Shown: positions 13,295 through 16,453 of the stretch, piece by piece | Position numbering within the stretch: the stretch's first letter is position 1 | Layout: each line of letters starts with the position of its first letter | Assembly (NCBI GenBank): GCA_944390265.1 | Contig: CALXPK010000026.1 | Location: forward strand, 1 to 34,580 | Reading direction: 5' to 3' | From: an uncultured Alphaproteobacteria bacterium | Lineage (GTDB): Bacteria; Pseudomonadota; Alphaproteobacteria; RF32; CAG-239 | Length of the DNA: 34,580 nt | Translations under genes and position numbers: made by a program | The notes under the pieces: generated by a model | Seen by the model: only the letters and a program-made list of their open reading frames with translations | The model's database searches: none | What the model was told of the DNA's origin: nothing

Positions 13295-13942
13295 TTATGA
13301 CAGAGCCAAAGACTGAATCTCACGGCGCAATTCATTTAGGCCGGTTTTCTTTTCCGAGCTGGTGGCCAGCACCGTGACATAAGCGGCAGCATGGTCTTTG
13401 ATTATTTTTTGCGTGTCTGCCAAAACCTTCTCTAAGGCTTTGGCGCTGATTTTATCGGTTTTGGTGAGGACAATTTGGTAGGTGACGGCGGCTTTGTCCA
13501 GCATTTCCATAATTTCTAAATCAACTTTCTTAATACCATGGCGCGAATCGATTAAAACAAAAACGCGTTTCAAGTTCACACGGCCTTGGAGATAAGCAAA
13601 AATGAGCTTTTGCCACTGTTTGACCATGCTTTCCGGTGCTTGGGCAAAGCCATAGCCGGGGAGGTCGACAATATGAATTTTGTCGCCCAAGTTAAAGTAG
13701 TTCAGTTGTTGGGTGCGTCCGGGGGTGTTGGAGGTTTTGGCCAGCCCTTTTTGGCCGGTCAGCGCATTGATGATGCTCGACTTTCCGACATTGGAACGGC
13801 CGGCAAAAGCCACCTCCGGCATTTCGGTTAACGGCAGTTGCTCTAACTTAGCCACCCCGAGTACAAAAGTGCAGGGTTGCTTGAAAAAAGTTTCGGCTTT
13901 TTTTAAGGACTCTTGATTATACTCAGGGGTGGCAAATTCCAT
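13295..13942 (-). CDS. engB: Ribosome-biogenesis GTPase EngB (YihA/YsxC)
   Basis: EngB is a TRAFAC GTPase needed for maturation of the 50S subunit. The 215-residue protein shows all G motifs: G1 GRSNVGKSS (residues 48-56), G2 TPGRTQQ, G3 DLPGYG, G4 TKTDK and G5 ATSS. Length and motif spacing match the family. Its ATG overlaps the yidC stop by one base (TAATG), so it is translationally coupled as the last gene of the rpmH-rnpA-yidD-yidC-engB cluster. Confidence 0.97.
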
Positions 13943-15618
13943 TATTTTACTCCGTTTTTGCGCATGATGGCTTTTTGTTGGATGATGGAGAGGATGTTGC
14001 TAAAGCTCCAGTAAATGACCAAGCCGGCGGCAAAATGGCCGAGCATGAACATGAAAATCAGCGGCAACAACATAAACATGCGGGCTTGATCTTTGTTCAT
14101 CGGGGCCGGATTGAGTTTTTGCTGGATATACATCGTGATACCCATGATAATCGGCCAAACACCAATATCCAAAAATCCGGGGACAGGGAAGTGGATGATG
14201 CGTGAAATGGTCAGCGGGTCAGGAGCGGACAAGTCTTTAATCCAGCCGATGAAGGGGGCATGGCGAATCTCGATGGAGATATTCAACACTTTGTACAAAG
14301 AGAAAAATACCGGAATTTGAATCAGCATCGGCAAGCAGCCGGCGGCCGGATTGATTTTTTCTTTGCGATAGAGCAACATGGTTTCTTGTTGCAATTTCAT
14401 TTTGTCATTGCCGTAACGTTCTTGCAATTCTTTGATTTTTGGTTGCAGCTTTTTCATTTTGGACATGCTGTCAAAAGATTTGCCGGCAATGGGATACATG
14501 ACCAAACGCAGCAGAGCGGCAAAGAGCAAAATCGCCCAGCCCATGTTGCCGATGATATGGTAGAAAAAGTCCAAAATGTAGAAGAACGGTTTGGTCAAGA
14601 AATAGTACCAGCCAAAATCAACCGCCAAATCAAATTTTTCAATGTCAAACTGTTTGGTGTATTGGTCCAAGAGTTTGATTTCTTTGGCGCCGGCAAACAT
14701 TTTCAAATCAACAATGCCGACTGAACCGTTATCAATTTTTTGTTCGGCACCGACATAGTCCACCTGATAGCTGTTTTTGCCAATGTTGCTGAACTTGACT
14801 TTGCTCTCGCTGTTCTTATCCAAGATGAAAGCAGAGAACCAGTAGTGGTCAGAAAAGCCGGCCCAGCCGCCGTTGGTTTTATATTCTTCTTTTTCGCCGT
14901 CTTCCAAATCTTTATATTTGATTTCTTCCAAAGAAGAATCGACGACGCCAATCATACCTTCATGAATGATGGCGCGATTGGCATTTTTGGGGTCATAGGC
15001 ACGTTTTATCAACCCAAACGGATATAAGCTGATTTGTTTGCCGGAGTTGTTTTCTACGGCTTGCTCCAACGTGAACATATAGTTCTCGTCAACGGAAATT
15101 TTGCGAATGAAGCGGATGCCTTGGCCATTGTTCCATTCCAAAACAATCGGGGTTTCGGGTGTCAAGTCTTTGCCTTTAACGTTCCAGATGGTGTTGCTGC
15201 CCGGCAGGCGAATGCTTTTATCCATCGAAATCCAGCCAAAGTCGGCATAATAAGCATTGGCGGTTTTGGCCGGAGCAAAAAGCTCAACATCTTCACTGTC
15301 AGAAGCCAAAGTCTGTTTATATTTATCGAGATAAAGCTCATCAAAACGGCCGCCTTTGACGCGGATACTGCCGAGCAAAGCCGGTGTTTTAATTTGGATG
15401 CGTTTGTCCTGATTCAAGGCTTCGGCCTTTTCCATCGGGGCTTCATCAAAAACAACCGTATCGGCTTTTTCATTTATGCTTGTGTCAACGGTTTCTTCAA
15501 TTTGCGGCAGAGGTTTAGTTGGTTTAACCTGCTCTTTGGGAAACAGCAAATTGGTTACAAAAATCACGATAATGGACGCGATAACAGCAAGGTATAGGCC
15601 TTTTACATCATCTTTCAT
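13942..15618 (-). CDS. yidC: Membrane protein insertase YidC
   Basis: YidC inserts inner-membrane proteins alone or with SecYEG. The 558-residue protein has the Gram-negative layout: an N-terminal anchor (~6-24), a large periplasmic beta-sandwich P1 domain (~60-340), then the five-helix insertase core. The core begins with [17 protein letters not shown], whose Arg matches the conserved hydrophilic-groove Arg, followed by the cytosolic hairpin [19 protein letters not shown] and [19 protein letters not shown]. The last helices end near [13 protein letters not shown]. The ribosome site (AAAGGAAG, 15628-15635) lies inside a 20-bp stem in the leader, described separately. Confidence 0.98.
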
Positions 15619-15647
15619 CTTTTTAAACTTCCTTTAATTAACGTCAT
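15615..15647 (-). CDS. Possible 10-codon leader ORF upstream of yidC
   Basis: ATG at 15645-15647 opens [10 protein letters not shown] and stops at TGA 15615-15617, which overlaps the yidC ATG (15616-15618) as ATGA. A purine-rich GAGGAG lies 13 bases before this ATG, longer than ideal spacing. The ORF lies within the 3' arm of the stem that covers the yidC ribosome site, so a ribosome translating it would melt that stem. Expression is unproven; a chance ORF of this size is common. Confidence 0.35.
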   Translation of the reverse strand: MTLIKGSLKR

Positions 15648-15729
15648 GCTTGGATGTTTTCTCCTCGTGTACCTCAAATGTACACGTCGTCAAAAACTTC
15701 CGGCGCAGCACGTCAATTAAAGAAAGTTT
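15619..15729 (-). promoter_or_regulatory. Structured leader RNA of yidC
   Basis: A 20-base 5' arm (15710-15729) pairs over its whole length with a 3' arm (15625-15644): 18 Watson-Crick and two G-U pairs. The 3' arm contains the yidC ribosome site. The ~65-base loop holds a second perfect 7-bp hairpin, CGTGTAC/GTACACG (15666-15686), next to a purine-rich GAGGAG. Occlusion of the ribosome site is a direct reading of the pairing; a regulatory role is inferred. It could instead be a genomic palindromic repeat. Confidence 0.6.
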
Positions 15730-15760
15730 AACCGGCGCGCGGCAAGCAATTTTGTATGTA

Positions 15761-15788
15761 AATCTATTTTCTTACATATATCTAACAA
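15761..15788 (-). promoter_or_regulatory. Candidate internal promoter for yidC-engB with dyad
   Basis: On the minus strand, TTGTTA (15783-15788) and TAGATT (15761-15766) have a 16-base spacer, which would start transcription shortly before the structured yidC leader. A 7-bp dyad, TATGTAA (15755-15761) / TTACATA (15772-15778), spans the -10 element and could be an operator. Confidence 0.4.
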
Positions 15789-15830
15789 ATTGTTCTTAAT
15801 TTAGTGGATTTCTTTTCTCAAAGCAAGGTT

Positions 15831-16088
15831 TTATAGCGGGTTATGCTTGCTTTTCTTTTCATCTGCCGGCGGAACGGGGTCATAACCGCTGCCGCCCCAA
15901 GGATGACAACGCAACAAACGTTTGGTTCCAAGCCACAAACCTTTGAAAATGCCATGTTTTTCGATGGCTTCAATCATATATTGCGAGCAGGTGGGTTGAT
16001 AACGGCAGACGCCGGGGCATAAGGGAGAGAGAAATTTTTGATAAAACCTGACCAGCAAAATCAAAATTTTTTTGATGATTTTGCTCAT
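15831..16088 (-). CDS. yidD: Membrane-insertion efficiency factor YidD
   Basis: YidD is a small membrane-associated protein thought to assist YidC-dependent insertion. The 85-residue protein has an amphipathic N-terminus ([22 protein letters not shown]), the three conserved cysteines in [15 protein letters not shown], and the C-terminal [14 protein letters not shown] motif. I chose ATG 16086-16088, which overlaps the rnpA stop as ATGA; the frame remains open further upstream but only inside rnpA. It lies about 210 bases upstream of yidC, the usual order. Confidence 0.96.
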
Positions 16089-16453
16089 TTGGCGGCCTTT
16101 TTCTCGTTTATCAAAGCATTGATTTGTTCCAAGGCTTTTTGCATGTTGTCTTTGAGCTTTTGAAAATCGCAAGTGGCGGTGTTGTAGCGGCCGATTAAAA
16201 CATAATCCACATTGCTTAAAGCCGTTTGCGGAAAAACTTCTCTGACGGCGGCGCGCAACCTTCTTTTGGTGCGGTTCCTGATATGGGCTTTGCCCAGCTT
16301 TTTGGTGGCAGTGTAGCCGATGTGGCAGATGTTTTCTTGCATAGATAAACTAAGAGCCGCCTGCAGGATTAAGCCGGAGGTGACCACTTTTAATCCCTTA
16401 GAGGCGACTCTAACGAAATCTTTTCTCTTTTTTAAGATAAAAACTTCTACCAT
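16085..16453 (-). CDS. rnpA: Ribonuclease P protein component
   Basis: RnpA is the protein cofactor that helps the RNase P RNA bind precursor tRNAs. The 122-residue basic protein has the family RNR signature in [21 protein letters not shown] (about residues 52-72) and the N-terminal [14 protein letters not shown] substrate-binding strand. It follows rpmH with a 12-base gap and overlaps yidD by four bases (ATGA). The start ATG 16451-16453 has no strong ribosome site, so translation may depend on rpmH coupling. Confidence 0.95.

Follow-up and report, generated by a model that had tools for sequence, protein, structure and literature searches.

In Bacillus subtilis, yidC2 is preceded by the mifM ORF and by a stem that covers the Shine-Dalgarno (SD) sequence, and in Clostridia the CliM ORF likewise lies before yidC. 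Burial of an SD in a long helix is also known from the lambda N leader, where it is relieved by RNase III. The RPE of Rickettsia are palindromes of 105-146 bp found in intergenic regions, in-frame in protein genes and in tmRNA (Delihas review, PMC2229807, citing Ogata 2000, 2002). The ERIC, Correia and RUP MITEs are imperfect palindromes of 100-200 bp, which are intergenic and co-transcribed and can alter the fate of the mRNA (PMC2229807).

The yidC leader studied here lies in a stretch of 34,580 nucleotides (the window) from an uncultured Alphaproteobacteria bacterium. It shares with MifM-yidC2 the position of an ORF before yidC and the stem covering the SD, and with CliM the ORF, but it has no sensor peptide, and its stem is a dispersed repeat. 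Like the lambda N leader it has a long helix burying the SD, which may be open to relief by RNase III. The repeat resembles the RPE in being a long stem-loop palindrome of an alphaproteobacterial lineage, with in-frame insertions and copies in tmRNA. However, the lineage is a different one, and the RPE have a 12-bp terminal inverted repeat, whereas the copies here share only the inner core and have outer arms that change from locus to locus. Because of these differing arms, and because the likeness is one of description and not of sequence comparison to the RPE consensus, membership in the RPE is not claimed; the habits of the repeat appear to match the RPE descriptions. With ERIC, Correia and RUP it has in common an imperfect palindrome of about 107 bp, but conserved terminal repeats or a target duplication were not demonstrated here, and the core matches no Rfam family. 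No named repeat was found in the literature for this alphaproteobacterial group. The repeat is apparently an undescribed, RPE-like family of small-genome alphaproteobacteria, the relatives being uncultured MAGs.

The hairpin in front of yidC

The gene order around the leader is rpmH-rnpA-yidD-yidC-engB. Pfam supported rnpA, yidD, yidC and the GTPase; rpmH was identified by sequence reading, and the GTPase following yidC is of the engB type. The features in window coordinates are listed below, with other genomes given by number (G).

13942-15618, minus strand: yidC, 558 aa (PF14849 and PF02096)
15831-16085, minus strand: yidD (PF01809)
16085-16453, minus strand: rnpA (PF00825)
15623-15731, minus strand: yidC-leader copy of the dispersed palindromic element, about 107 bp, matched by covariance model R1, with homologous copies in the yidC leaders of G001, G002, G004 and G053 and elsewhere
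15710-15731, minus strand: 5' outer arm, 22 positions paired with 15623-15644
15623-15644, minus strand: 3' outer arm with the yidC SD AAAGGA, placed by pairing and by three double-sided compensatory changes against G053
15651-15701, minus strand: inner stem and apical hairpin CGTGTAC-loop-GTACACG, the conserved repeat core, with invariant core columns in a nine-copy alignment
15615-15647, minus strand: 10-codon ORF with stop, overlapping the yidC ATG, from sequence reading; the ORF ATG is a repeat core motif

On the minus strand, 15729-15710 (AAACTTTCTTTAATTGACGT) and 15644-15625 (ACGTTAATTAAAGGAAGTTT) were paired at every one of the 20 positions, including two G-U pairs, exactly as the original prediction had it, and two further T-A pairs extend the outer stem to 22 bp. 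The yidC SD, AAAGGA, was read inside the 3' outer arm, where the ribosome site had been predicted to lie. A 7-bp hairpin, CGTGTAC/GTACACG, was present in the loop, adjoining a GAGGAG motif. Folding of the leader RNA, proposed as a check of the stem, gave a minimum free energy of -54.9 kcal/mol compared to -30.8 +/- 3.4 kcal/mol for shuffled sequences. With a z of -7.1 and none of 200 shuffles as good, the fold is far beyond chance. Covariance model R1 matched 15623-15729 with 111 bits (E 5e-23). No Rfam family, cis-regulatory RNAs and thermosensors included, matched the leader at gathering score.

A fully paired SD would suit an RNA thermosensor at yidC. However, typical bacterial thermometers are far less stable than a perfect 22-bp helix in a hairpin of -55 kcal/mol, and there was no Rfam thermosensor match; a thermosensor is very improbable.

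A possible promoter had also been predicted just upstream of the leader. The promoter scanner found none on the minus strand before yidC, but a CTTGCTT-N17-TAAATT-like motif was seen by eye 3' of yidD (window 15770-15810, minus strand) and recurs across the family. This recurring motif suggests that yidC may have its own promoter.

A dispersed repeat family

A covariance model was built from nine aligned copies and used to search near relatives, the family and other alphaproteobacteria. Matches were found in 18 of the 20 near relatives. Within the family, 120 of the 152 genomes, representing 16 of 16 genera, had matches; outside it, no more than 3 of about 140 alphaproteobacterial genomes did. 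Weak copies were seen in three distant alphaproteobacterial families, in G245 (locus L257, 11 copies in the genome), G240 (L258) and G201 (L259).

The copy-rich genomes G010, G008 and G007 had about 20-31 matches each, a few of these being one palindrome matched on both strands. Genomes of genus g1, to which the window belongs, had 1-14 matches (12-14 in G003), and the window's own assembly, which is 86% complete, had only three distinct copies, including a tandem pair on contig 71. Tandem arrays were also seen among the dispersed copies; the tandem unit is about 110 bp and is present three times upstream of yidC in G004. Multiple copies at unrelated loci within one genome are what is expected of a dispersed palindromic repeat. 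Many copies of the same palindrome elsewhere had been named in the original prediction as the finding that would speak against a dedicated leader, and this is largely what was observed.

The repeat is a nested hairpin of about 107 bp, and thus an imperfect palindrome within the 100-200 bp range. Inside a locus-variable outer stem come an internal loop (GCTGCGCCG / CAAGCATGA), then the inner stem, and at the tip a conserved hairpin (CGACGTGTACA..GTACACGAGG). The sequence of the outer arms changed with the locus, the inner core being the only part common to the copies. Double-sided changes were observed in 21 of the 38 consensus pairs of the nine copies, a number reached by none of 500 shuffles and by no slid register. 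Template-switch correction of quasipalindromes could keep arms matched without selection, and covariation alone therefore does not prove function.

Presence of the repeat was polymorphic. Within g1 and g2, the element at yidC was seen in full, in tandem, as a remnant or not at all, and the rpmD-rplO spacer and typA were likewise polymorphic. Inspection of the flanks by eye revealed no constant target duplication. No mobilising enzyme was identified for the repeat, and Y1 transposases do not track copy number. IS200/REP (Y1) mobilisation was rejected, as PF01797 is absent from the copy-rich G003, G009 and G010. An integron attC site was rejected as well: GTTAAAC fits GTTRRRY, but the dispersed copies do not have the boxes.

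The yidC copy and the 10-codon ORF

The full element was found at yidC in the window genome (G000), G001, G002 and G004 of genus g1 and in G053 of genus g2, with one to three copies per leader; there were three in G004, two together with a fragment in G001, and two or more in G053. In the leaders of G005 and G006 no more than the 3' arm and its ORF remained, and the stem was missing; the leader of G003 had a remnant at most, also without stem. The element was absent from yidC in the other genera examined, beyond g1 and g2. Since three of the eight g1/g2 genomes lost it, the stem at yidC is dispensable.

Compared to G053, the outer stem had three pairs with both bases altered, and two such pairs were found in the inner stem over the five sequences. 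The covariation looked for in the rnpA/yidD-yidC gap was thus present, with 5 covarying pairs in total between two genera whose YidC proteins are about 70% identical. The SD AAAGGA was found as a weaker AGAGAG in G053. Pairing at yidC was consequently kept better than the ribosome site, as the stem covaries while the SD weakens.

A repeat inserted at the start region of yidC explains the hairpin better than a switch dedicated to this gene. Most probably, 15623-15731 is a copy of an RPE/MITE-like dispersed palindromic repeat, in place in the yidC 5' leader before g1 and g2 split, and burying the SD. The proposed course of events is that the repeat arrived in the leader before this split and that its outer 3' arm coincided with the yidC ribosome site, by which the SD would be buried in a 22-bp helix of the transcript. 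The stem would then lower or condition yidC initiation, and a lowering through burial of the ribosome site is probable. yidC is normally essential, and the buried site must therefore be opened or bypassed. Opening of the stem could be due to passing or re-initiating ribosomes (possibly via the 10-codon ORF), to a helicase or to RNase III cleavage. Several findings speak against this reading. Between the two genera, the stem at yidC was retained, and the arm carrying the ribosome site changed in a compensatory manner; a plain selfish insertion would have been expected to decay, although template-switch correction of quasipalindromes is another way in which the arms could stay matched. The similar arrangement at typA, the lack of an identified mobilising enzyme and the small copy number of the window's own genome also count against it.

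The predicted 10-codon ORF ending in an ATGA overlap with yidC was confirmed in the sequence, with its ATG at 15647 and its TGA overlapping the yidC ATG (15618). The GAGGAG described as preceding it was found beside the 7-bp hairpin at about 15666-15661, but it lies 13 nt from the ORF ATG, which is an unfavourable spacing, and part of it is base-paired in the predicted structure. The frame was open in seven of the eight g1/g2 genomes (the window genome, G001, G002, G004, G005, G006 and G053) and broken at the homologous ATG in G003. The peptide substitutions among these genomes were all non-synonymous, and a conserved peptide was rejected on this ground. ATGA-overlap ORFs occur before yidC in three genomes of other genera as well, by chance. 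The GAGGA..ATGA motifs of the ORF belong to the repeat core and were present in 10 of 39 antisense copies, located at gene 3' ends, and in 9 of 35 others.

An exapted yidC leader could make use of this arrangement: ribosomes translating the 10-codon ORF would open the stem, and the ATGA would couple the ORF to yidC, as a constitutive or growth-responsive switch. The covarying stem, the buried SD and the overlapping frame open in 7/8 genomes fit such a leader. It is nevertheless quite unlikely, considering that both the ATG of the ORF and its SD-like motif belong to the repeat core, that the SD spacing is 13 nt, that every substitution is non-synonymous and the frame is broken in G003, that G003, G005 and G006 have no stem, and that similar ORFs arise by chance in three other-genus genomes. 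Conservation of the ORF in relatives had been suggested as a check, and neither the yidC SD nor the peptide was conserved. The original interpretation was supported in part: a stem does cover the ribosome site, and its pairing is retained at the yidC locus between two genera. A leader purpose-built for yidC and controlled through an ORF was not supported, the element being a dispersed repeat whose core motifs are equally common in antisense copies. As for the ORF, it most probably arose as a by-product of the conserved ATGA core motif and of a frame open to yidC by chance, and control of yidC by the short ORF is a possibility that found no support.

The location before yidC and the stem over the SD also resemble mifM-yidC2, where an arrest peptide acts as a sensor of membrane insertion. 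The peptide encoded here has ten residues, no membrane segment and no conserved C-terminal arrest motif, and it is not conserved. In MifM, the median distance from signal to arrest is 54 residues (PMC10987492), which supports the earlier judgement that the ORF is too short for a membrane-insertion sensor. A MifM-like sensor was rejected on length and lack of conservation, and its probability is negligible.

Placement and strand bias of the copies

The copies adjoin varied genes (lpxD, ADP-PFK, PEP-utilising enzyme, recR, mutL, infB and rplI) and are found at the stop codons of lpxD, recR, mutL, infB and rplI among others. In G003 and G006, for instance, related copies occupied the rpmD-rplO spacer and a site following rplA. 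Placement was polar. When opposite-strand frames of at least 100 codons were considered, 39 of 74 copies had their 3' end within 25 nt of the stop of such a frame, whereas the mirror case was seen in 9 copies and the random mean was 5. At yidC and typA, the 3' end of the copy abuts the start codon and the ribosome site is located in the arm.

Isolated stem mismatches outside the core were counted on the yidC-mRNA strand, in stems aligned with a wobble-blind pairing rule. G.U was found 74 times and A.C 19 times, in copies that were detected with a G.U-tolerant model, are not independent within a genome and include a ratio of 27:3 from G008 alone; per copy, 38 leaned towards G.U and 5 towards A.C. 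Constraint on double-stranded DNA predicts equal G.U and A.C, and the excess thus points to a single-strand constraint in which the folded strand would matter as RNA or ssDNA. No role in the mRNA of the stop-abutted gene is implied, because the G.U-rich strand is antisense to that gene.

A family-wide RNA function was considered, in which the repeat is a site for RNase III or other processing, or a protector of mRNA 3' ends, and cleavage of the stem frees the yidC ribosome site. The one-strand excess of G.U over A.C is in line with this, as are the element ends at opposite-strand stops (39/74 copies against a null mean of 5), the copies in the tmRNA gene, which is processed anyway, and the rpmD-rplO hairpin in most genomes. 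The antisense orientation of the G.U-rich strand in stop-abutting copies and the unrelated hairpin that often fills the same position argue against it, and a function of this kind is possible but doubtful.

In the typA leaders of about seven genomes from several genera (L288, L295, L302, L304, L305, L306 and L308), the 3' arm of the element lies on the ribosome site TTTAGGAAAGAAA. The same ribosome-site sequence was found in genomes without the element. The typA arrangement may hint at a selected role of the repeat. A tentative and rather unlikely extension would be a structured repeat of the whole family, kept on one strand as RNA or ssDNA, with outer arms matched to the local flank (to the ribosome sites of yidC and typA, and elsewhere to the surroundings of stop codons), which was exapted more than once to cover the ribosome sites of these two genes.

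The dispersed repeat at yidC illustrates that a striking 'riboswitch-like' leader can result when a repeat inserts at the start of a gene. The locus-matched outer arms and strand-specific G.U bias of the family are two unusual traits, and through them one can ask if such repeats exist as RNA or as single-stranded DNA.

In the rpmD-rplO spacer (L260-L285), most genomes had a hairpin starting from the rpmD stop codon, with either the element core or an unrelated loop. In G010 (L096-L115), the repeat was seen in-frame in about 15 paralogs directly before GRSMVEMLGVLAIIGV, with the repeated peptide DVYKNGTRAKRRQAD; these paralogs had no Pfam match and are called pilin-like from the GRSMVEMLGVLAIIGV motif. 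The repeat was also seen inside split alphaproteobacterial tmRNA genes (RF01849) of three genera, at L081 (G003), L098 (G010) and L136 (G009), which were missed by ARAGORN and detected by Rfam. The tmRNA gene of G010 contained about five tandem copies or fragments.
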